From NCBI GenBank assembly GCA_001791045.1, contig MGDT01000006.1:1-44912 (forward strand): DNA of 44,912 bases, read 5' to 3'. Numbering within the stretch: position 1 is the first letter of the stretch; each line of letters begins with the position of its first letter. Under the pieces are notes generated by a model. It did not search any database. It was given only the letters and a program-made list of their open reading frames with translations, and was not told the DNA's origin. The translations under genes and the position numbers were made by a program. Source of the DNA: Candidatus Uhrbacteria bacterium RIFCSPHIGHO2_01_FULL_63_20. GTDB taxonomy: Bacteria; Patescibacteriota; Patescibacteriia; UBA9934; GWF2-40-263. Below, one piece after another: positions 4,627 to 15,589 of this stretch.

Positions 4627-5817
4627 ATGAGCAAAACTAAGACAACTATAGGGGTGTCATCCCGACAAGGCGGAAACAGCGGGCTTTCTGATGCGAAAAA
4701 GGCCAAACAAGATGAGTTTTACACCCAGCTATCCGATATCGAGAATGAGCTGAAATGGTACAAAGAACAACTGAGAGGCAAGGTGGTTTTTTGCAATTGC
4801 GACGACCCTTTTGAGAGTAATTTTTTCAAATATTTCGCTCTCAATTTCAACGCACTAGGTCTCAAGAAACTTATCGCGACCAGTTATGTGCCATCGGCAA
4901 TCGCTGGCAAGCAGTTGCCGCTAGTAGAAATTGAAGGACTAAAGCCAGACGGCAAAGAGCCATTCAAAATCGAGATCAATGCTGTACCGGATGCGAACGG
5001 TGATGGGGCAACGGATCTCGCTGACGTGGAGTATCTCTTGCGGCATGAGGCGAACATTGCAACTCCGCTCAAGGGTGATGGGGATTTCCGGAGTGCCGAA
5101 TGTGTCGAGCTGTTGAAACAGGTCGACATTGTATGTACGAACCCGCCGTTTTCTCTGTTTCGTGAGTTTGTGGCACAGCTCATCGAGTACGAGAAAAAGT
5201 TTTTAGTCATTGGAAATCAAAACGCGATAACGTACAAGGATGTTTTTAATTTGATTAAGGAAAATAAACTTTGGCTCGGCGTTGATAACGGAGGGACGAA
5301 GTGGTTCCGTGTACCGGATGGCTACGATATTCAAACAGAGTCGCGAAAGAAAATAGTCGACGGTGTGAAATATTTTAGTTTTGGAAGCATCATGTGGTAC
5401 ACAAATCTTGATAACCCCCGTCGTCACGAGAACATTCCTATATACGCGACCTACACCCCTGAGAAGTATCCGAAGTACGATAACTACGACGCAATCGAGG
5501 TGAATAGGGTGTCGGAAATTCCGGCAGACCATGCAGGTGCAATGGGTGTCCCCATTACGTTCCTCGACAAGTATAATCCCGACCAGTTCGAGATTTTGGG
5601 GATAACGAAAACATGGTTCGGTGGAGCAAACAAGGTCTATCCGAATCAAACACAAGTAAGCAAAGACGGAACGAATAGCACCGTTTCAAAGCTCAATGAT
5701 GGCGCCACATTAAAAATAAAAAGTCCGCCGAGCGGTGAGACTTACTATATCGTTGACGGAGAATATTACATACAGCTCTACGCAAGAATTATTGTCAGAC
5801 GAAAAGACAAAATATGA
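4627..5817 (+). CDS. EcoRI-type adenine-specific DNA methyltransferase
   Basis: The protein has 396 residues. Its overall layout matches the EcoRI methylase family (N6-adenine). The N-terminus carries KAKQDEFYTQLSDIENEL, the family's opening motif. FCNCDDPFESNFFKYF lies near residues 58-73, and the catalytic motif IV is NPPF in VDIVCTNPPFSLFREF (near residue 173). FLVIGNQNAITYKDVF and the long C-terminal part also fit. It transfers a methyl group from SAM to adenine in a DNA target. The stop overlaps the start of the DUF262-HNH gene (ATGA at 5814), so the two are translationally coupled, which suggests a restriction-modification pair. There is no good Shine-Dalgarno. Base composition is clearly more AT-rich than flanking core genes, a sign of transfer. 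Target specificity cannot be read from the sequence. Confidence 0.9.
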   Translation: MSKTKTTIGVSSRQGGNSGLSDAKKAKQDEFYTQLSDIENELKWYKEQLRGKVVFCNCDDPFESNFFKYFALNFNALGLKKLIATSYVPSAIAGKQLPLVEIEGLKPDGKEPFKIEINAVPDANGDGATDLADVEYLLRHEANIATPLKGDGDFRSAECVELLKQVDIVCTNPPFSLFREFVAQLIEYEKKFLVIGNQNAITYKDVFNLIKENKLWLGVDNGGTKWFRVPDGYDIQTESRKKIVDGVKYFSFGSIMWYTNLDNPRRHENIPIYATYTPEKYPKYDNYDAIEVNRVSEIPADHAGAMGVPITFLDKYNPDQFEILGITKTWFGGANKVYPNQTQVSKDGTNSTVSKLNDGATLKIKSPPSGETYYIVDGEYYIQLYARIIVRRKDKI

Positions 5818-6923
5818 AAATCGAATTGCGCAACATTAAAGTGCGTGAGGTTGTGGGCGACTACAAGGACGATGGTGAAAATGGTGTGGTCGGCTATGGT
5901 GGCAAGCTGGACATTCGTCCCGCATACCAGCGTGAGTTTATCTACAAGCCAGAACAGCGTGACCTAGTAATCCGGACTGTTCGCAAGGATTTTCCACTGA
6001 ACACGATGTATTGGGCCGTGACGGAGAGTGGGTACGAGCTTATGGACGGCCAGCAGCGCACGATTTCCGTGTGTCAGTACGTCAACGGTGATTTTGCCGT
6101 GGACTGGGATGGCCAACCGCGCGGGTTCAGCAACCTGACGCACGAAGAGCAAGAGCAGATTCTCGAATACGAGCTTTCGATTTATGTGTGCGAAGGGACG
6201 GACAAGGAAAAGTTGGACTGGTTCAAGACTATCAATATCGCTGGAGAGAGACTGACTGACCAGGAACTACGCAATGCGATCTACACTGGACCGTGGCTAA
6301 CGGACGCGAAGCGGTGGTTTTCCAAGACGGGCGCGCCTGCAGCACATACCGGTGAAAATCTAGTAAAGGGAACACCAATCCGACAAGAAATTCTGGAAAA
6401 GGCGTTGGAGTGGATCGGTGGTGGCAATGACCTGATTGCGCAGTACATGGCCGACCACCAGCATGACAAGGACGCGTCTGAACTGTGGCAGTACTATCAA
6501 GAAGTCATCGCTTGGGCGACTCGTATCTTCCCGAATCAGGACGGTGCTCGCGTAAAGCTTATGAAGGGCCTCGATTGGGGCGTCTTCTACAACGAGCATA
6601 AGAGCGACAAATTGAACGCGACAAAACTTGAACAGCAGATTGTGGAACTAATCGATGATGATGATGTCGAAAGCAAGCGCGGGATCTACGAATATCTGCT
6701 GACGGGTGACGAGCGGACCTTGAGCTTGCGTGCCTTCGACGATAAGACTAAGCAAAAGAAATATCAGCAGCAGAAGGGGGTGTGCCCTGTGTGCAAGAAA
6801 AAATTCGAATACAATGAGATGGAAGCCGACCACATCATGCCGTGGAGCAAGGGGGGCAAGACAGTAATTGATAATTGCCAAATGCTGTGCGGGCAGGACA
6901 ATCGGATGAAATCGGGAAAGTAA
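5814..6923 (+). CDS. DUF262 and HNH endonuclease protein (putative restriction partner)
   Basis: The protein has 369 residues. The N-terminal DUF262 (ParB/Srx-like fold) has PAYQREFIYKPEQRD and the characteristic DGQQRT (near residue 77, YELMDGQQRTISV). The C-terminus is a zinc-finger-like HNH: CPVCKKKFEY (near residue 323), then ADHIMPWSKGGKTVIDNCQMLC with the DH, the N, and a closing N-x2-K. DUF262-HNH proteins include GmrSD/BrxU/SspE-type nucleases that cut foreign or modified DNA, sometimes with NTP hydrolysis through the DGQQR motif. The ATGA overlap with the methylase argues that this is its cognate nuclease. Cleavage and site specificity are inference. Confidence 0.85.
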   Translation: MKIELRNIKVREVVGDYKDDGENGVVGYGGKLDIRPAYQREFIYKPEQRDLVIRTVRKDFPLNTMYWAVTESGYELMDGQQRTISVCQYVNGDFAVDWDGQPRGFSNLTHEEQEQILEYELSIYVCEGTDKEKLDWFKTINIAGERLTDQELRNAIYTGPWLTDAKRWFSKTGAPAAHTGENLVKGTPIRQEILEKALEWIGGGNDLIAQYMADHQHDKDASELWQYYQEVIAWATRIFPNQDGARVKLMKGLDWGVFYNEHKSDKLNATKLEQQIVELIDDDDVESKRGIYEYLLTGDERTLSLRAFDDKTKQKKYQQQKGVCPVCKKKFEYNEMEADHIMPWSKGGKTVIDNCQMLCGQDNRMKSGK

Positions 6924-7025
6924 TTCGAGACACTTTTCGGCAGATATTATTTGTTTGGTCTAATCAGGCAGCGCTCATCAGATAGACACCCTGTTGCAAT
7001 TCTGTGGAATTAGGTGGGTGACAGT

Positions 7026-10000
7026 ATGAAGGATTTGAATGAGGATGAGGTCGGTTATTCAGTAAACGTTAGTCCAAATCAATCCAGACGGGACGAGATT
7101 TGTGATTTCATGGATGCGTTTAACGACGTAGAAAAATTTTGTCAAAGAACTAAGCCATCAACACTTCTGAAAGGCGGTTGGGCCGCAATGCAGAAAGGGT
7201 TTCGGATTCAAAATCCAGACTGGATGGCTCAATCCGCACATTCGTTTAGAGAAATTCACTACCAGTACATTGATTCAAAATCCAATTTTTCGTTCCTTAA
7301 GCGGATCACTATCCCGATATTAGTTCGGTTGTTTAAATATGAACCCGGAGACCTTACTAAGGGCAGGGTTGATAGGATTAGTGACTCTTTGAAGACATAT
7401 GTCGCTGACGAAGCCAGACGACAAAACCTCGCAAAACTAATCAATAAAATTCATTTAGCTTTCTCCAACATTTCGCACCATTTTAAAAAAACAAATAGCT
7501 TAAAGCAGACAATAAAGACCCTGACTGAATTAAACATTTCTCAAAAAAGTACAAATTCGGTTGAAGATATAAGTTACGAGCAGATAGTAGATCGATTTGA
7601 AGGATTTTTGTTGGACATAAAACCGCGTTCAATTAAGTCTCACCAAATTATTGATCAATTAATTTCAAGCAAAAACCTGGATGAAAACAAGGTCAAAGCC
7701 ATCTGTTTTTCTGGAGGCAGTTTAGACTCCAGACTGTACTTTTTTTCCAAAATCGATGAATCGTATTTAGCCTGGGTCTGGGAGAAGGGGTTCTTGAGTG
7801 CGATAAATTCGCCAGCGAAGGATTCAACGCGATACTCCTACACTCTTCCAGAGCTTGGTTATCTTGTACGAGTTGCTGAAAAATCACCCGAGCTTGTTGG
7901 AAAAATACTTCTATCCACACGCATCTCAGAAGAGAATTTTAACCCGGAAGTAGTAGATCGATTCGTTTGGATAATAGGTCAACTACCGGCTTCTCAAATC
8001 AAGAAGATTCTTCCAAAAGTATTGGAGGAGAATTGGGTTAAACTAATGTCGGTGTTTTCACGGTCTGCCTACGAATATAAGAAGGCAGTTGAGACCTTGT
8101 TAGCACAAAAAGATTTTGATTCTCTTTTAGTTTTGGCCCAGATTCTTTTGGCCATACGCGAACACGGAAGTTTCAATCCTTCCGGAGCTTTTACGGACAA
8201 CGATCTTTTTTACTTCAAAGATATTTCGGAGTCAGAGATTTTTGAGGCAATTCTTGATAACGATAATAATCGCACTGAAGAATCACTAAGTGTCTTTACA
8301 GATATTCTTAGAAAAATTGTCAGCTTGGAGAATCCTGAAAAGAGTGAAGCCTTCTCTTTCTCAGAACCGTTTCATCTTCGGGACACTGACCTTTTTACGC
8401 TCGAATTAAGTCAGGTTCGAGCAGGACATTCTCGTGAAGATATCAAAAGTCTACTTGCGGTTATTAAAAAATTGATCGAAAAGCTATTAACGCAATCATG
8501 CGGGAACGAACCAGAAGCGAGGCGACTATATCTCCGCTACATCAACCATCTTCCAGATAGCCATACTCTTTGGCGATTGAAGTTATTTGCGCTTACGCGC
8601 TGCCCCGAACACGTCAAGGACGAACTAAAAAAAGCGCTTTTTAGGGTGTTTAATGTCGGAGAGCAATACTTTGAGATTGATGGTGGTGCCGAATATCACC
8701 ACACGATCGTTATATGCTTCGGTGTTCTAGACCCGATCATACAGCGAGAATATGTTTCAAGTCTCTTCACTTACTACGGAGTCACACTGACGGACAAGGA
8801 TATAGAAAAGAGGCGGAAGCGTGACGGGCTCGAGATCCTTGATTATATCTCCAATCACTTAACTGACGACGAAAAATTACGTGCCAAAATTATCTTCGGT
8901 AAAGTTCCTGTTGCCGGACGACATGTGCCTCACGCTTCAATAGAAATGGGCAGAGGAGGAGTGGTTCAACCTAAATCCCATGTTAGCCCCGCCGATTTTT
9001 CGATTGAAGAAATTATCAGTCACCTTAAATCTGATTGGCGGCCAGAGACTTTGAATGCTCAGTTTGAGCATGATGACTTCTTATCTCCACGTGGCGCGGA
9101 AGGCCTGGGGGATGCGTTAAAATTGGACTTCCGAGCTCGCATGGACGCGTATTTCGCGTTTCTTAGTGAGTTTTTTGATCGCGACACGATTCATTCCTGC
9201 TATCTCTATTCTTTACTAAGAGAAATTGACGAGATGCTCAGGAATAGACAGACACTCACCGATGAACAGAACTCAGCCTTATTGACACTTTTTGAACTGG
9301 TTCGCGTGTCGGGAGAGCAAAAGACTTTTGAAAGGGTGGGGGATCGATCTTGGCTTGCTGACTGGATAACCGTTCACAAAATCACGGCCGATATTCTGCT
9401 TGGGATTCTTACCGCCACGGGAGACTCGCTGTGGTTTAAGAACAACAGAGAAGAGATACTAAAGTTGATCGGTTACTTACTCTCAATTGAAAGCAGTCCG
9501 TCACCAGAAGAGGATGATCCAAAATTCGGTGGCCCGTATCACGTTGCTATCAACTCAGTTCGAGGACAGGCTTATATCGCATTCGCGCAATTTGCGTGCA
9601 ATGATGGGAAAGTACTTGCCCCTGATGTAAAAAAACTTTTTGAAAAAATACTGAGCTCGGATTCTTCTAACCCGGTTAGATTTTTGATCGGGCACCATTT
9701 GGGCATTTTTTACTTTAGAGACAAGAGTTACATTCAAAAACTTTTACCTAATATTTTTCCAAATGCAGATATCACAAAAGAAAAACTGTTTTTCGCTTCC
9801 TGGGAGGGCTATCTTGCCAATAAGCTTTATGGCGAGCTTTTCGTGACATTGCGAGATTATTATCAGTATGCAATAGCGCTGAACCCCGATTCGTATCCAG
9901 ACAGGGAATATTTTAAGGGTCTTGATGAGACATTGGCCGCACACCTTGCTCTCGAATACTCCCATTTCGATTTTTCAATTAACGATCTGCTCTTCACTTT

Positions 10001-10583
10001 ATTTTGGAGTACTCCGAATGACACACGTCAATACGAATTCGTGTCGTTTATTGGGCGCAGTTGTCTAACTCGTGATCAGGCTGGCGATAAATGGCTGGAG
10101 GACAATCATGTTAGCAAGGAAAAGCTTATGAAGTTCTGGGACTGGCTTTTATCGACGGATTTGCCAATTACCCCAAAGGCTTTTTCTGGTTTCGGTTTCT
10201 GGATCAATCCAGACAAGGAAATTATCGATGAAAAGTTTCTTGTTAAAAATCTTGCTGCCAGTCTGGAAAAATCTAAGGGCGCACTTGACTGGGATTATGG
10301 TTTGATGCAGAGGATTCGGGTTTTTGCAGAGATTGATCCGGTAAACACCTTGGGCGTGATCCGTAATTTATTGTTGCTAGATGGCGAGCTTAATCCAAAT
10401 CGACGCGCGTATTTCGGGGCAGACAATGAAATTAAGGAGGCTCTGTCTATCATCTATAAGGTTTCACCTCTTAAACCCAAAGTGGAAGAATTGATTAGTA
10501 CGCTGATTGAGAAAGGCAGTAGCATGTTCTGGAGCCTCAAAGATGTTCTTACATTAGGAGGAGGGACCACAGGCAAATATTAA
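7026..10583 (+). CDS. Large (1185 aa) predicted helical protein of unknown function in defence-like context
   Basis: The start is the ATG at 7026, preceded by AGGTGG at 7011-7016; a GTG at 7014 in the same frame is possible. The protein is 1185 residues, soluble, and looks mostly alpha-helical, with long Leu/Lys/Glu-rich segments and no signal peptide or membrane segments. I found no Walker A P-loop, HNH, TIR, SIR2 or PD-(D/E)XK signature. The last third (for example AINSVRGQAYIAFAQFA, RFLIGHHLGIFYFRDKSY, SWEGYLANKLYGEL) reminds me of helical sensor tails of large STAND/SIR2-linked defence proteins, but that is memory of style, not a match. It is the most AT-rich gene in the window and lies 102 bases after the DUF262-HNH gene. 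A TATTAT at about 6945 could give it its own promoter. Confidence 0.8.
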   Translation: MKDLNEDEVGYSVNVSPNQSRRDEICDFMDAFNDVEKFCQRTKPSTLLKGGWAAMQKGFRIQNPDWMAQSAHSFREIHYQYIDSKSNFSFLKRITIPILVRLFKYEPGDLTKGRVDRISDSLKTYVADEARRQNLAKLINKIHLAFSNISHHFKKTNSLKQTIKTLTELNISQKSTNSVEDISYEQIVDRFEGFLLDIKPRSIKSHQIIDQLISSKNLDENKVKAICFSGGSLDSRLYFFSKIDESYLAWVWEKGFLSAINSPAKDSTRYSYTLPELGYLVRVAEKSPELVGKILLSTRISEENFNPEVVDRFVWIIGQLPASQIKKILPKVLEENWVKLMSVFSRSAYEYKKAVETLLAQKDFDSLLVLAQILLAIREHGSFNPSGAFTDNDLFYFKDISESEIFEAILDNDNNRTEESLSVFTDILRKIVSLENPEKSEAFSFSEPFHLRDTDLFTLELSQVRAGHSREDIKSLLAVIKKLIEKLLTQSCGNEPEARRLYLRYINHLPDSHTLWRLKLFALTRCPEHVKDELKKALFRVFNVGEQYFEIDGGAEYHHTIVICFGVLDPIIQREYVSSLFTYYGVTLTDKDIEKRRKRDGLEILDYISNHLTDDEKLRAKIIFGKVPVAGRHVPHASIEMGRGGVVQPKSHVSPADFSIEEIISHLKSDWRPETLNAQFEHDDFLSPRGAEGLGDALKLDFRARMDAYFAFLSEFFDRDTIHSCYLYSLLREIDEMLRNRQTLTDEQNSALLTLFELVRVSGEQKTFERVGDRSWLADWITVHKITADILLGILTATGDSLWFKNNREEILKLIGYLLSIESSPSPEEDDPKFGGPYHVAINSVRGQAYIAFAQFACNDGKVLAPDVKKLFEKILSSDSSNPVRFLIGHHLGIFYFRDKSYIQKLLPNIFPNADITKEKLFFASWEGYLANKLYGELFVTLRDYYQYAIALNPDSYPDREYFKGLDETLAAHLALEYSHFDFSINDLLFTLFWSTPNDTRQYEFVSFIGRSCLTRDQAGDKWLEDNHVSKEKLMKFWDWLLSTDLPITPKAFSGFGFWINPDKEIIDEKFLVKNLAASLEKSKGALDWDYGLMQRIRVFAEIDPVNTLGVIRNLLLLDGELNPNRRAYFGADNEIKEALSIIYKVSPLKPKVEELISTLIEKGSSMFWSLKDVLTLGGGTTGKY

Positions 10584-10743: not shown

Positions 10744-10772
10744 TTGACATTGTTTCTAAAAAATACTAACCT
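10744..10772 (+). promoter_or_regulatory. Promoter of the SAM-riboswitch transcript
   Basis: TTGACA at 10744-10749 and TAACCT at 10767-10772 are spaced by 17 bases, giving a start near 10779. The rest of 10584-10743, between the large gene and this promoter, shows no recognisable feature beyond a weak inverted repeat (GAGACGA / TCGTTTCTC). Confidence 0.55.
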
Positions 10773-10784
10773 CAACCTACAACT

Positions 10785-10938
10785 GAATACGTATCCAGAG
10801 TGCAGCGAGGGAATCGGCCCAATGACCTGCCAGCAACCCTTCTCCGCCGTCGCCCCTATCGGGGCTATGGCGGACCAGCCTACGGCTGGGACAAGAAGAA
10901 GGTGCCAACTCCGACCCGTGATGGGAAAGATAACCTCT
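10785..10938 (+). promoter_or_regulatory. SAM-I (S-box) riboswitch
   Basis: The conserved blocks of the S-box occur in order: TATCCAGAG (10792-10800), GCGAGGGAATCGGCCCAATGA (10805-10825), CAGCAACC (10831-10838), AAGGTGCCAACTCC (10899-10912) and GGGAAAGATAA (10923-10933). These match the P1/P2 junction, the kink-turn region, the GCAACC block and the GGTGC(T/C)AA-TCC block of SAM-I. Between GCAACC and AAGGTGCC the usual short P3 is replaced by two extra hairpins. A terminator-like hairpin follows directly. The regulated gene is an orphan 100-residue protein. SAM-I binding normally switches the gene off by transcription termination. Confidence 0.92.
10842..10888 (+). repeat. Palindromic element inside the riboswitch
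   Basis: TCCGCC (10842-10847) pairs with GGCGGA (10869-10874), enclosing CGCCCC TAT CGGGGC. CCAGCC TAC GGCTGG follows at 10875-10888. The outer TCCGCC...GGCGGA frame resembles the CCCGCC...GGCGGG element in dnaE (21816-21841), so a small mobile palindrome may have landed in the P3 arm. Confidence 0.55.
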
Positions 10939-10943
10939 AGGTA

Positions 10944-10972
10944 CTCTTCCTTATGGGAAGAGTTTGGTGTTT
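10944..10972 (+). terminator. Riboswitch expression-platform terminator
   Basis: CTCTTCC (10944-10950) pairs with GGAAGAG (10956-10962) across TTATG, followed by TTTGGTGTTT. It lies between the aptamer and the ATG at 10975, as expected for SAM-dependent premature termination. Confidence 0.6.
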
Positions 10973-10974
10973 AT

Positions 10975-11277
10975 ATGGAACGTTCATTCGAATTCACGGT
11001 GATCTCGGCCAATGACGGCACGAGCCAGAAGAAGTCCATCAGGCTGCTTCGTGCCGACGAGCTCAAGGACTACAAGTCGCTGGGCTCTGGGACCGGCTCC
11101 CTTATGGAGGCGTTCGCCAGGGGCTCCAGGCACTGCAAGGATTTCAGCTCGCGCGTCGTCGGCTACGCGCTCGCGAGCGAGGAAGTCACCAAGCAGCTGA
11201 ACGACGCGCTCAACGAGGGGGCGTCTTCCGGGATGAAGTACCGGGCCAGCGTCTACGCGTTCTACGAGAAGGCGTAG
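10975..11277 (+). CDS. Orphan 100-residue protein controlled by a SAM-I riboswitch
   Basis: It starts at the ATG at 10975 (MERSFEFTVIS), 13 bases after the terminator stem. An open frame runs further upstream through the riboswitch but is not coding. The protein is small, soluble and mixed alpha/beta in look, with an N-terminal strand-like FEFTVISAND, a basic KKSIRLLRADELKDY and a C-terminal SGMKYRASVYAFYEKA. No membrane segment, signal peptide or catalytic motif is seen. I do not recognise the family, and it is not a known methionine-pathway gene. Its own terminator follows at once, so the riboswitch governs this gene alone. Composition is GC-rich like the core, unlike the AT-rich block just upstream. 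Confidence 0.75.
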   Translation: MERSFEFTVISANDGTSQKKSIRLLRADELKDYKSLGSGTGSLMEAFARGSRHCKDFSSRVVGYALASEEVTKQLNDALNEGASSGMKYRASVYAFYEKA

Positions 11278-11283
11278 CTCTCC

Positions 11284-11309
11284 GACGGCATCCGAAAGTG
11301 CCGTCTTTT
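11284..11309 (+). terminator. Intrinsic terminator of the riboswitch-controlled gene
   Basis: GACGGCA (11284-11290) pairs with TGCCGTC (11299-11305), with TCCGAAAG between and TTTT after, 7 bases past the stop. Confidence 0.85.
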
Positions 11310-11394: not shown

Positions 11395-11826
11395 CTACGC
11401 CCTTGGCTGGTCAATCAGCCGCGTTTCGATCCAGATATTCAGCTCATGGAGGACCGCATCCTTAACAGTCGCGGACGACTCGGCAATCGTGACCGCTTTT
11501 TGGACGACTTCGTCCTGCGGGCAGGAGATCCATTTCTTGTTCATCGCTAAAAACACCAGAAGCGAAGTCGTGGAGATTCGCTTGTTCCCGTTGGCGAAGG
11601 CATGCCCCTTGATCATGCTGTAATACAAGATGGCCGCCTTCGAGATGAGCATCGGGTACAATTCCTGCCCGCCGTACGTCTGCTGCGGGTTTCCGAGGAT
11701 GGATTCGAGCTTGCGCGGGTCGTGTTCCTCGAACGGCGGGATCGGTTCCTCGTATTTATCGAAAAGTGCCACGGCGAGCGCGTGGCACATTTCACGCATC
11801 ATTTGTATGTCGAGATAACAAATCAC
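11395..11826 (-). CDS. Doc/Fic-family toxin
   Basis: The protein has 143 residues. The Doc-type catalytic loop HAFANGNKR is clear (near residue 75, in MIKGHAFANGNKRIST). This is the Hx[FI]x[DN]GNKR form of the Fic motif, which in Doc phosphorylates EF-Tu and in other members transfers nucleotides. ILYYSMIKGHAF and TSLLVFLAMNK also fit the 'death on curing' group. It starts with GTG at 11826 overlapping the stop of the upstream small gene (GTGA), as in toxin-antitoxin pairs. The target is not visible in the sequence. Confidence 0.85.
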   Translation of the reverse strand: MICYLDIQMMREMCHALAVALFDKYEEPIPPFEEHDPRKLESILGNPQQTYGGQELYPMLISKAAILYYSMIKGHAFANGNKRISTTSLLVFLAMNKKWISCPQDEVVQKAVTIAESSATVKDAVLHELNIWIETRLIDQPRA

Positions 11827-12084: not shown

Positions 12085-12266
12085 GTAAGTTCCTTCCACC
12101 GACACACTGCAGCCCGCAGTTCAACGGGCCGCGCATTCCTTCCCGAAGTGGGATAGGTAACCAGGGAAATCTGCTGGGAGCCACATGGGGTGCGGCGACT
12201 GATCGGAAACGGTTGGGAGATTTCATTCAGCCTTGCGCTGGATCAAATCTCTTAGCCGTTTTTCTT
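12085..12266 (+). ncRNA. Unclassified structured RNA of about 180 nt (6S-like or leader RNA)
   Basis: The segment is bounded by a well-spaced promoter and a strong terminator and contains no convincing reading frame. It is GC-rich, with internal complementarity: TCCC/GGGA and CCT/AGG close an apical hairpin (about 12138-12157), CCCGCAG (12113-12119) can pair with CTGCTGGG (12171-12178), and CCGACAC (12099-12105) with GTGCGG (12190-12195). The length and rod-like pairing with internal loops would suit 6S RNA, but I cannot confirm its signature. It could also be a leader of the gene at 12287, whose ATG is 21 bases past the U-tract. It is not tmRNA, SRP RNA or RNase P RNA by their conserved motifs. 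Confidence 0.55.
12210..12266 (+). terminator. Long intrinsic terminator of the structured RNA
   Basis: CGGTTGGGAGATTT (12210-12223) pairs with AAATCTCTTAGCCG (12245-12258) with a few G-U pairs. A nested CAGC/GCTG stem lies inside, and TTTTTCTT follows at 12259-12266. Confidence 0.8.
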
Positions 12267-12286
12267 ATTCTATAACCATCACACAT

Positions 12287-12700
12287 ATGTTCACGATTCC
12301 TCGTAGTAAGCGTTGCCACCTGTTCGACTCCACAGATCTCCTTCATCTGGATTTCCCGTGTGCCTTCGACGCCGTAGAGACGTATGTGGAGGATTCCCAC
12401 TTCAGCCACCGGCTCGTCCGTTGCACGGATTGCAGCCAACTTTACCTTAAGGAGTTCTATGAAACGATCGATTGGGCCGATGGCGACGATCCGCAGCGCG
12501 TCACGCTCATGCCTGTGGTGAACGCCGAGGCGGGGAAGCGGCTGCATGACGCGTTTCCCAACGGCCTAGGCGCCGTCGTGCCCCGGCTCGTGTTCGATTC
12601 TCCCAAGGGCGGACCGCGGACGGCCGGGTGGGTGGGGATGGAGAGCCGCATTGACGTCACGGCGCGTGAAACCGTCCGGCAGCTCAATGCGGAATCGTGA
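12287..12700 (+). CDS. Conserved small protein with a CxxC motif
   Basis: The protein has 137 residues from the ATG at 12287. There is no Shine-Dalgarno; a TATAAC at 12271-12276 would give a leaderless message. The segment LVRCTDCSQLYLKEFYETIDWADGDDPQ (near residues 43-70) resembles a widespread hypothetical family with the pattern RCxxCGQxYxxxFYExxDWxxGxDPQ, whose role is unknown to me. One CxxC is present, plus a lone cysteine earlier, so metal binding is possible. The start lies 21 bases past the terminator of the structured RNA, so that RNA may regulate it. A UUCG-loop terminator follows the stop. Confidence 0.7.
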   Translation: MFTIPRSKRCHLFDSTDLLHLDFPCAFDAVETYVEDSHFSHRLVRCTDCSQLYLKEFYETIDWADGDDPQRVTLMPVVNAEAGKRLHDAFPNGLGAVVPRLVFDSPKGGPRTAGWVGMESRIDVTARETVRQLNAES

Positions 12701-12729: not shown

Positions 12730-12864
12730 CCATGGGACAACGCGTGTATGATTGGATGGCTGTGAAATTGAAGAAAAGCACTGTGCAAAAAATGCACTTT
12801 GCAAATCCTACGACGCCTGCAGTTGTTGCAAAAGATGCAACAGGTCAAGACCCAGGGCAGGCCA

Positions 12865-12916
12865 GTTGACATTAGTCTTGATAATGTCAACAGAATAGTC
12901 TATAATGTTGACATTA
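12865..12916 (+). promoter_or_regulatory. Promoter with three operator copies before the Fic gene
   Basis: TTGATA (12878-12883) and TATAAT (12901-12906) are 17 bases apart. The 10-mer GTTGACATTA occurs at 12865-12874 and 12907-12916, and inverted (TAATGTCAAC) at 12882-12891. One copy covers the -35 and another the start site, two bases before the ATG, so a bound repressor would block transcription. The short leader leaves no room for a Shine-Dalgarno. Confidence 0.8.
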
Positions 12917-12918
12917 CT

Positions 12919-14100
12919 ATGGGTAACATCAACCAAGCGAAAATCGGCAGATATATCAAGCAAAAAGAAGGGTACAAGACCTTTACCCCCTTTGCGTTTC
13001 CGCCAAAAGGCGGTTTTAAAATCAGTCCGAGACTCTACAAGAAGCACGAAGAAGCGATACGCCTGGTTGGCAAGCTGGATGGCATCACCAGGCTGTTGCC
13101 GGACAAGGATTTTTTCCTGCTGATGTTCATAAAAAAGGACGCTGCCTATTCGAGCCAGATCGAGGGCACAAAGGCGACCCTTCAGGATGCGGTGGCTGCT
13201 CCGGTCACGGAAGAAAAGGCCAGACTTCATCCAGACGTAGATGATATCGTCCATTATGTCGATGCCGTGAATTACGGGATCCAAAGGGCCAAGACATTGC
13301 CGATTTCCCTGCGATTCATCAAGGAGCTCCATGAACGGCTCATAAAAGGCGCACGTTCGACGCATCATGCCTACCCAGGCGAGTTTCGTCGTTCGCAAAA
13401 CTGGATCGGCGGAAGATCCCCAGAGGATGCCTCGTTCGTTCCCCCGGCACCGCATGACATGAACGTAGCTTTGGGCGACTTGGAAAAATTTGTCCATGCC
13501 GACGACGACTTTCCTTCCTTGGTCAAGGCCGGCCTTCTTCATGCGCAGTTCGAGACCATCCACCCGTTCGCCGACGGGAATGGCCGAACGGGCCGCATGC
13601 TTATCGCCATGTATATCCACCATGCGCAGCTGTTGGAATTGCCGGTGTTGTACTTGTCGAGTTACTTCAAAAAATATCAGAAGCTGTATTACCAGAAACT
13701 GCAGGGTTATCATGATGAAGACGCGCATATAGATGGCTGGCTTCAGTTTTTCCTTGAGGGAGTCGCGGAAATCGCCAACGCTTCTATAGAAACGTGCACG
13801 AAGATTACGGCCCTGCGCGACCGTGACTTCGAGAAGATGCAAAAACTCGGGAAGAAATCCGCCGCGTCCACATTGGAAATCATCCGTAAGCTGTACGGAC
13901 AGCCGATCGTCGGCGTCGCCGAAATTGCAAAGTGGACAGGCTTCAGTCCACAAGGTGCCTATAACGTGATTGAACGGCTCGAAAAATTGAAAATCCTTGA
14001 ACCCCTCGGCGATGCCGCATATGGGCAAAAATACATTTATGCTGACTACTATGAAATATTCGATGACACGTTCAGAGCGACAAAGGCGCACAGAAAATGA
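12919..14100 (+). CDS. Fic-family adenylyltransferase with inhibitory motif and winged-helix tail
   Basis: The protein has 393 residues. It opens with a Fic_N-like region. The self-inhibition motif SSQIEGT (near residue 78, class II: S/T-x3-E-G/N before the Fic core) is followed by the catalytic loop HPFADGNGRTGR (near residue 214), complete for ATP-dependent AMPylation, and a flap region SEDASFVPP-like (residues near 173). The C-terminal 80 residues hold a winged helix-turn-helix (VAEIAKWTGFSPQGAYNVIERLEKLKIL). Such Fic-wHTH proteins modify a protein target and can also bind DNA. The three operators in its own promoter point to autoregulation. The wHTH could supply that, or an unlinked repressor. 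A DUF2779 gene follows 16 bases downstream. Confidence 0.92.
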   Translation: MGNINQAKIGRYIKQKEGYKTFTPFAFPPKGGFKISPRLYKKHEEAIRLVGKLDGITRLLPDKDFFLLMFIKKDAAYSSQIEGTKATLQDAVAAPVTEEKARLHPDVDDIVHYVDAVNYGIQRAKTLPISLRFIKELHERLIKGARSTHHAYPGEFRRSQNWIGGRSPEDASFVPPAPHDMNVALGDLEKFVHADDDFPSLVKAGLLHAQFETIHPFADGNGRTGRMLIAMYIHHAQLLELPVLYLSSYFKKYQKLYYQKLQGYHDEDAHIDGWLQFFLEGVAEIANASIETCTKITALRDRDFEKMQKLGKKSAASTLEIIRKLYGQPIVGVAEIAKWTGFSPQGAYNVIERLEKLKILEPLGDAAYGQKYIYADYYEIFDDTFRATKAHRK

Positions 14101-14116
14101 TTCCGAATGAACTTTC

Positions 14117-15589
14117 ATGCTTACCAAATCCAACTTCATCAAGTTCCTCGAGTGTTCCTGCCAGCTGTGGCTCGTGAAGAACATGCCGCACCTGCTGCCG
14201 CCGATCGATGCGGCCTTGCAGCGGCTGTTCGACGAGGGGAACAAGGTGGACCTGTTCGCGAAGAAGCTGTTCCCGCGCGGGGTGGAGATCGCGGGGTTCA
14301 ACGAGGCGGGGGCGCGCAACACGGCGGCTGCCATCGCGAAGGGCGCGACGGTGCTGTTCCAGCCAACCTTTACGGGCAACGGGATCACCTGCCGCTGCGA
14401 CATCCTCGTGAAGCGCGGACGCTCGTGGGACCTGTACGAGGTGAAGTCGTCCACGGGGCAGAAGGGGACGCACGTGATGGACCTGGCGTTCCAGCGGATC
14501 TGCCTGGAGGAATCCGGGATCCGCGTGGGAAAGACCTTCCTCGTGCACGTCAACAACCAGTACGTGCGCCGGGGGAAGGTGGACCCGTTCGGCGTCCTCA
14601 CGACGGTGAACCTCACGCAGGAGGTGAAGGCGGCGCTCCCGGTGGCGCGCACGCAGGTCGCGCGCGCGAAAAAGACCCTCGCGCTTTCCACGAAAGCCGG
14701 GCTCGACCTCCTCAAGGCCTGCTCCGCGCCGGGATCCTGCCCGTACCTGCCGCTGTACGCCGGCACCATCTTGCACGAGGACGCATACGCCATCGCGCCG
14801 GGCCTCCCGCGCGCGCGGCTGCGCGAGCTGCTCGCGCGCGGCGTCATCGCGCCCAAGGACGTGCCGCCCGACCTGCTCGAGTCCCTGGGCGGCGCCGCGG
14901 CGTTCAGGCGCTCGCGCGCGAAGAAGCCCGTGGTCAGCATCGACCGCGAGGGGCTTGCGCGCGAGTTCGCGGAGCTCGAGTACCCGCTCCACTTCCTCGA
15001 TTACGAGACGTTCGCTTCGGCCATTCCGGACTTCGACGGGTACCGGCCCTACCAGCAGGCCGTGTTCCAGTATTCGCTGCACGTGCTGCGCAAGCCCGTA
15101 GGAAGGCTCGAGCACAAGGAGTTCCTGCACGACGCGTCCACGGACCCGGCCAAGCCCGTGGCCGCCGCGCTCGCGCGCGACATCGGTCCCGTTGGAAGCG
15201 TGATCGTGTGGAACGAGCGGTTCGAGGCCAGCCGCAACGAGGAGCTCGCGCGCCTGGTGCCGTCGTTGCGCGCGCCGCTGCGCTCGATCAACGAGCGCAT
15301 GTACGACCTCATGCAGGTGGTGAAGCGCGGGCTCTACCTCGACAGCCGCTTCGAGGGGAGCGCGAGCCTCAAGAAGGTGCTCCCCGTGGTGGTCCCGAGC
15401 CTTTCTTATGGCAGCCTCAACGTCCGCAACGGCGAGATGGCCGCCGCCGGCTGGCCCGAGCTCACGCACCCGCGCACGAGCGCCAAGCGCAAAAAGGCAT
15501 TGCGCCGCGACCTTCTCGCCTACTGCAGGCTCGACACCCTGGCCATGGTGGAGATCTTCAAGAAATTTTCGGAAGCGTCGAAGGCGTGA
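14117..15589 (+). CDS. DUF2779 protein: PD-(D/E)XK-like nuclease with exonuclease-like C-terminus
   Basis: The protein has 490 residues and starts at the ATG at 14117 (MLTKSNFIKFLECSCQLWLVKN), a DUF2779 opening that resembles the Cas4-like SK-x-CxxKxWL motif. The nuclease-like core has RCDILVKRGRSWDLYEVKSST (near residues 93-113), with D and ExK as in PD-(D/E)XK folds. The C-terminal part opens with LHFLDYETFASAIP (near residue 292), a D-x-E of RNase H-like 3'-5' exonucleases, and ends with CRLDTLAMVEIF, the distal aspartate. Function in the cell is unknown, with DNA or RNA processing likely. The last codons nearly meet the convergent M23 peptidase gene (12 bases apart). Confidence 0.85.
   Translation: MLTKSNFIKFLECSCQLWLVKNMPHLLPPIDAALQRLFDEGNKVDLFAKKLFPRGVEIAGFNEAGARNTAAAIAKGATVLFQPTFTGNGITCRCDILVKRGRSWDLYEVKSSTGQKGTHVMDLAFQRICLEESGIRVGKTFLVHVNNQYVRRGKVDPFGVLTTVNLTQEVKAALPVARTQVARAKKTLALSTKAGLDLLKACSAPGSCPYLPLYAGTILHEDAYAIAPGLPRARLRELLARGVIAPKDVPPDLLESLGGAAAFRRSRAKKPVVSIDREGLAREFAELEYPLHFLDYETFASAIPDFDGYRPYQQAVFQYSLHVLRKPVGRLEHKEFLHDASTDPAKPVAAALARDIGPVGSVIVWNERFEASRNEELARLVPSLRAPLRSINERMYDLMQVVKRGLYLDSRFEGSASLKKVLPVVVPSLSYGSLNVRNGEMAAAGWPELTHPRTSAKRKKALRRDLLAYCRLDTLAMVEIFKKFSEASKA

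Follow-up and report, generated by a model that had tools for sequence, protein, structure and literature searches.

The window, a 44,912-nt stretch of Candidatus Uhrbacteria bacterium RIFCSPHIGHO2_01_FULL_63_20 (genome G000), contains a genuine SAM-I riboswitch (S-box) aptamer, located 38 nt upstream of a gene encoding a 100-residue protein. Judged by sequence comparison, this protein represents a new domain family (domain A), which together with domains B and Z makes up a set of stand-alone and fused small proteins encoded directly behind S-boxes in Patescibacteria. SAM-responsive control of the 100-residue gene is very probable, and the regulatory reading, that of a SAM-off switch serving a new family, is well supported. 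The locus resembles known S-box leaders in its aptamer core, its P1 to P4 helices, its pseudoknot, and the presence of a 3' hairpin before the gene. It differs from them in controlling a gene of a new family and not a methionine or SAM gene, in carrying an insertion in P3, and in having a hairpin that has an interrupted U-tract and lies close to the AUG.

The S-box and its expression platform

The sequence-only reading had described an S-box core at 10785-11277 and proposed Infernal with RF00162 as the check. The cmscan match covers the full length of the model (positions 1 to 108; E = 3.8e-08) and exceeds the gathering score of 44.4 that served as the cutoff for an aptamer call, and every core motif quoted in that reading is present in the aptamer. 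This is the window's only Rfam match at the gathering threshold and the only SAM aptamer in the whole 863-kb genome. Its score ranks roughly in the bottom third of those in the class, P1 has only four to five pairs, and the P3 loop is lengthened by an insertion of ~50 nt. We considered whether the insertion is a genome repeat and rejected this, as there is no copy elsewhere in the genome.

In an alignment of the window aptamer, its insertion trimmed, with those of 11 related loci (12 rows), 96% of cells are paired, compared with 90.5% in shuffles, and both-sided changes are seen at seven pairs. The pseudoknot between the P2 loop and J3/4 is paired in all 12 rows, with both-sided changes at three of its four pairs. 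It takes five forms, UCGG/CCGA being that of the window and UUAG/CUAA, CUAG/CUAG, CUGG/CCAG, and CGAG/CUCG those of other loci, a pattern that provides good evidence of selection on the tertiary fold.

Table 1. Features of the S-box locus (positions in the window)
Feature	Position	Strand	Basis
SAM-I (S-box) aptamer	10789-10936	+	RF00162, 48.3 bits, above gathering score
P1 5' strand, UAUC; partner 10929-10932 (GAUA); short P1	10792-10795	+	Alignment, pair counts
Pseudoknot arm in P2 loop, UCGG	10814-10817	+	Covaries with J3/4 in 12 aptamers
P3 loop insertion, two hairpins	10843-10891	+	cmscan; genome repeat check
Pseudoknot arm in J3/4, CCGA	10911-10914	+	Covariation
P1 3' strand, GAUA; adjacent GGGAAAGAU able to pair instead with 5' arm of the 10943 hairpin	10929-10932	+	cmscan, folding
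Expression-platform hairpin, ACUCUUCC-UUAU-GGGAAGAGU, then UUGGUGUUUAU (weak, interrupted U-tract)	10943-10963	+	Terminator scan, folding; hairpin also kept in G302
Possible Shine-Dalgarno, GGUG, 5 nt 5' of AUG	10966-10969	+	Predicted from sequence
Domain A protein gene, 100 aa	10975-11277	+	Homologs in six other genomes; GC3 0.88; AlphaFold2 model
Intrinsic-terminator-like hairpin 3' of gene, tail TTTTGTT	11284-11305	+	Terminator scan

The promoter and terminator that had been placed before and after the S-box are both weaker than described. A TTGACA is found at 10744 with no clear -10 element, the scanner giving only a different 9/12 site, and the hairpin between aptamer and gene is followed by TTTGGTGTTTAT and not by a clean U-tract; a good terminator lies 3' of the gene. 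Under a strict leader terminator test (hairpin plus U-tract), the window fails despite its hairpin, whereas 59 of the 102 S-boxes of the class pass, compared with 3.0 expected in shuffles. Because a translational platform also falls within the SAM-I family, this result leaves SAM-I membership standing. Most relatives in the class have a U-tract after the hairpin and are probably controlled by termination. In the window and the sister genome G302, an interrupted tail (UUUGGUGUUUAU, UUUUGGAGUUUU) follows the hairpin and the start codon is ~11 nt away, so translational control may apply there.

The stretch 10905-10966 has a second possible fold that excludes the hairpin: CCAACUC, the P4 arm, and GGGAAAGAU of the aptamer then have the hairpin region as their pairing partner. 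The folding energies are -22.3 versus -13.0 kcal/mol, a rough comparison only, as the stretches differ in length. The SAM binding and the direction and level of control that we infer for this locus are those of an OFF-type SAM-I riboswitch joined to one gene. Bound SAM would stabilize P1 and thereby favor the hairpin, which would form just 5' of the start codon and block expression. When SAM is absent, the hairpin region would instead be paired with the 3' portion of the aptamer (CCAACUC...GGGAAAGAU), and the 100-residue protein would be made.

Domain A, its partners, and their S-boxes

GC content by codon position in the 100-residue open reading frame (0.52/0.45/0.88) is coding-like. The closest values are those of the gene at 14117 (0.64/0.44/0.93), and the upstream defense-type genes differ from it; together with the homologs found elsewhere, this establishes it as a real gene. 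That its product belongs to no known family, as had been claimed, is borne out by searches of Pfam (E values up to 1), NCBIfam, PHROGs, and plasmids, which gave no match, and by a PDB profile search, which returned only designed knots and ribosomal proteins with marginal E values. The AlphaFold2 model, computed from four sequences only, has an alpha/beta fold (pLDDT 84, pTM 0.72), with which Foldseek gave nothing convincing (best E values of 0.64 in PDB and 0.59 in BFVD). None of the Pfam, NCBIfam, PHROG, PDB, and fold comparisons places the protein in a methionine or SAM pathway family. Domains A, B, and Z are all without a Pfam, NCBIfam, or PDB match and lack any transporter or catalytic signature suggestive of uptake; the domain A protein is small and, by prediction, cytosolic and soluble.

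The description of the protein as an orphan did not hold, since it has six relatives as well as the modular partners B and Z. A scan of the genome contig collection with the single protein found no relative, and a scan with a three-row alignment succeeded; the six-row domain A alignment is too divergent for pattern scans. A search by sequence alone of 381 genomes of the class identified domain A in five others (G030, G219, G102, G225, and G302), and a separate collection yielded a further homolog in Candidatus Azambacteria (L141); two other hits in that collection, L140 and L142, are the G225 and G219 loci and add no new ones. Five of the six relatives are directly behind an intact S-box, which answers in its favor the question that the sequence-only reading had posed as a test of its claim: in G030, G219, G102, and G225 the S-box is upstream of the gene on the same strand, and the L141 gene also follows one. 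The sixth is an 89-residue ortholog in G302, a member of the same genus, and lies behind a decayed S-box that keeps its 5' half and the hairpin 5' of the gene and has lost the GCAACC and AAGGTGC core. In this decayed copy (L039 6720-6830, minus strand), the 3' half of the aptamer is replaced by other, partly palindromic sequence.

Domain A stands alone in the window, G302, G030, and L141, is fused with B in G219 and with a zinc-motif domain (Z) plus B in G225, and in G102 is fused with a domain also present on Bradyrhizobium and Granulicella plasmids. It is rare: 380 genomes spread over the phylum gave only its own match, and within its own family it is found only in genus g1. Domain B, for which the 381 class genomes were also searched, is behind an S-box in all seven genomes with strong matches, a marginal match in G299 (E = 0.005) being left out of the count. 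The S-box association of domain Z is circular, because this domain was identified solely by inspecting what follows S-boxes. No domain B was found on viral contigs, and a phage or plasmid origin of A and B gained no support, the phage and plasmid searches being empty for both.

S-boxes are present in 105 of the 381 class genomes. Among 102 sites examined (about 100 fetched loci plus the window), metK is downstream of 49, at a median distance of 59 nt, an arrangement that suggests sensing of the SAM supply by the switch at those sites. Of the remainder, several lie before genes of recurring small families (A/B/Z, a CPxCG zinc group, and others) and one before a MetF-like gene. We note that the genes behind S-boxes at L056, L057, L091, L124, L137, and other loci encode small zinc-motif proteins and members of additional unknown families, and that tandem S-boxes occur in G008 and G204. 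We found no paper on SAM riboswitches in this radiation in the open-licence literature.

Other features surround the window locus. A defense-like island (4627-10583, plus strand) upstream of the S-box encodes an EcoRI-type DNA methylase, a GmrSD/HNH endonuclease, and a 1189-residue protein without a Pfam match, and two Fic/Doc genes flank the region (11395-11826, minus strand; 12799-14100, plus strand), the second of which has a syntenic counterpart beside the G302 domain A gene. A strongly structured leader (12085-12275, plus strand; z = -3.85), with a long hairpin followed by TTTTTCTTATT and no Rfam match, precedes a 137-residue unknown gene (12287-12700) and is possibly an undescribed attenuator or riboswitch.

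SAM synthetase and SAM supply

S-boxes that precede metK, the usual arrangement in the class, share the aptamer and 3' hairpin layout of the window. The G000 S-box, by contrast, is not before metK; the genome's single MetK homolog (C6:69825-70853; L153 1326-2354) is encoded elsewhere, has no S-box before it, and has lost its catalytic residues. Relative to the catalytic residues H14, K245, K265, and D271 of MetK (E. coli numbering) and its GAGDQG loop, it has H14Q, K245H, and K265R, a gap in place of D271, and GATDTR for GAGDQG, and is not a canonical MetK. The S-box-controlled MetK proteins in which those catalytic columns are covered are all canonical. The G302 homolog has lost H14 and D271, and a tree places it together with that of G000 among MetK-like paralogs that form a clade of their own (100/100). 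Because related genera carry both copies, the MetK-like paralog adjoining the canonical MetK, G000 and G302 seem to retain the MetK-like copy only. The paralog clade (L153, L167, L171, L173, and L174), with its catalytic residues lost, is a possible pseudoenzyme.

A check for PF02773 in the genomes whose S-boxes precede genes other than metK showed it to be absent from seven A/B/Z genomes (G030, G219, G225, G204, G143, G178, and G338; completeness 76 to 99%) and from seven others; none of these 14 has an archaeal-type SAM synthetase. Canonical MetK is present in G102 and G108. Overall, canonical MetK is absent from 8 of the 10 A/B/Z S-box genomes, compared with 7 of 81 others (Fisher P = 2.9e-6 over 91 S-box genomes, ignoring kinship and with drafts that may miss genes). 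Measured against the class baseline, in which 144 of 348 genomes (41%) are without PF02773, the A/B/Z enrichment has a P value of 0.02 only, again ignoring kinship. SAM-dependent enzymes are kept, including the EcoRI-type DNA methylase of the window and TrmD in G030.

With most A/B/Z genomes, G000 included, lacking a canonical SAM synthetase, the switch would read SAM from outside, supplied by a host or by neighbors, and dependence on external SAM is reasonably probable. Obligate symbionts are known to scavenge SAM, as with the SAM transporters of Rickettsia and Chlamydia. The proposed dependence on external SAM and the loss of SAM synthetase are similar; the differences are that the window locus encodes no transporter and that the domain A protein is small and predicted to be soluble.

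What the domain A protein may do

The explanation that we favor, with moderate confidence in it as a whole, builds on the aptamer, the gene and its family, the S-box association, and the absence of canonical metK: a SAM-off switch would turn on a small cytosolic protein as imported SAM runs low. The domain A protein would most likely be a small soluble accessory factor for obtaining or sparing SAM in short supply, a role to which the metK association points tentatively. The earlier interpretation, that such a switch may mark a new SAM- or methionine-related protein, perhaps a scavenging or regulatory factor, is partly supported. Against our explanation, G302 keeps the gene after losing the aptamer core and can thus dispense with the coupling; P1 in the window is short, no clean U-tract follows the hairpin, and G102 and G108 have a canonical MetK.

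Alternatively, the S-box may control the gene and the protein may have no connection with SAM supply, acting as an effector in a general response to starvation or host contact that uses low SAM only as its signal. The A/B/Z proteins are small and without transport or enzyme signatures, further small families, unrelated to these, are likewise found behind S-boxes of the class, and two A/B/Z genomes have a canonical MetK, all of which are in keeping with a general response; however, it gives no particular reason for the strong link between A/B/Z and the missing canonical metK, and we regard it as rather unlikely. That the window S-box is a decaying relic, by chance 5' of the gene and no longer regulating it, is improbable: the pseudoknot and all of the core motifs are preserved, the aptamer has a window-specific set of compensated pairs, and its 3' end has an alternative pairing with the hairpin, even though the short P1, the P3 insertion, the poor U-tract, and the lowish score would suit a relic and S-box decay is clear in G302. 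Very improbable is a protein that tempers restriction or methylation, needed for protection from the cell's own restriction enzymes when SAM is short and DNA methylation fails; the methylase and endonuclease upstream in the window, a C5 DNA methylase adjoining the G302 gene, and N-6 methylase-like, specificity-like, and restriction-like genes upstream in G204 (assigned by motif and sequence only) fit it, but no such neighbors occur in the stretches read at G030, G219, G108, G178, G338, G143, and L141, and with three loci only a restriction-modification neighborhood was rejected as a general rule.

Extending the role in obtaining or sparing SAM beyond this locus, we tentatively suggest a SAM-auxotroph regulon, in which Patescibacteria without SAM synthetase would sense imported SAM by S-boxes and switch on A, B, and Z, a dedicated set of small modular proteins new to science, to secure or ration it. 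SAM riboswitches nearly always control methionine and SAM genes, and here the target is a gene of a new family, whose members are each time found behind SAM switches in bacteria that are mostly apparently unable to make SAM. The A/B/Z proteins provide testable candidates among the many unknown genes of ultrasmall episymbionts, and the domain A family offers a direct handle on how these organisms meet their need for a universal cofactor.
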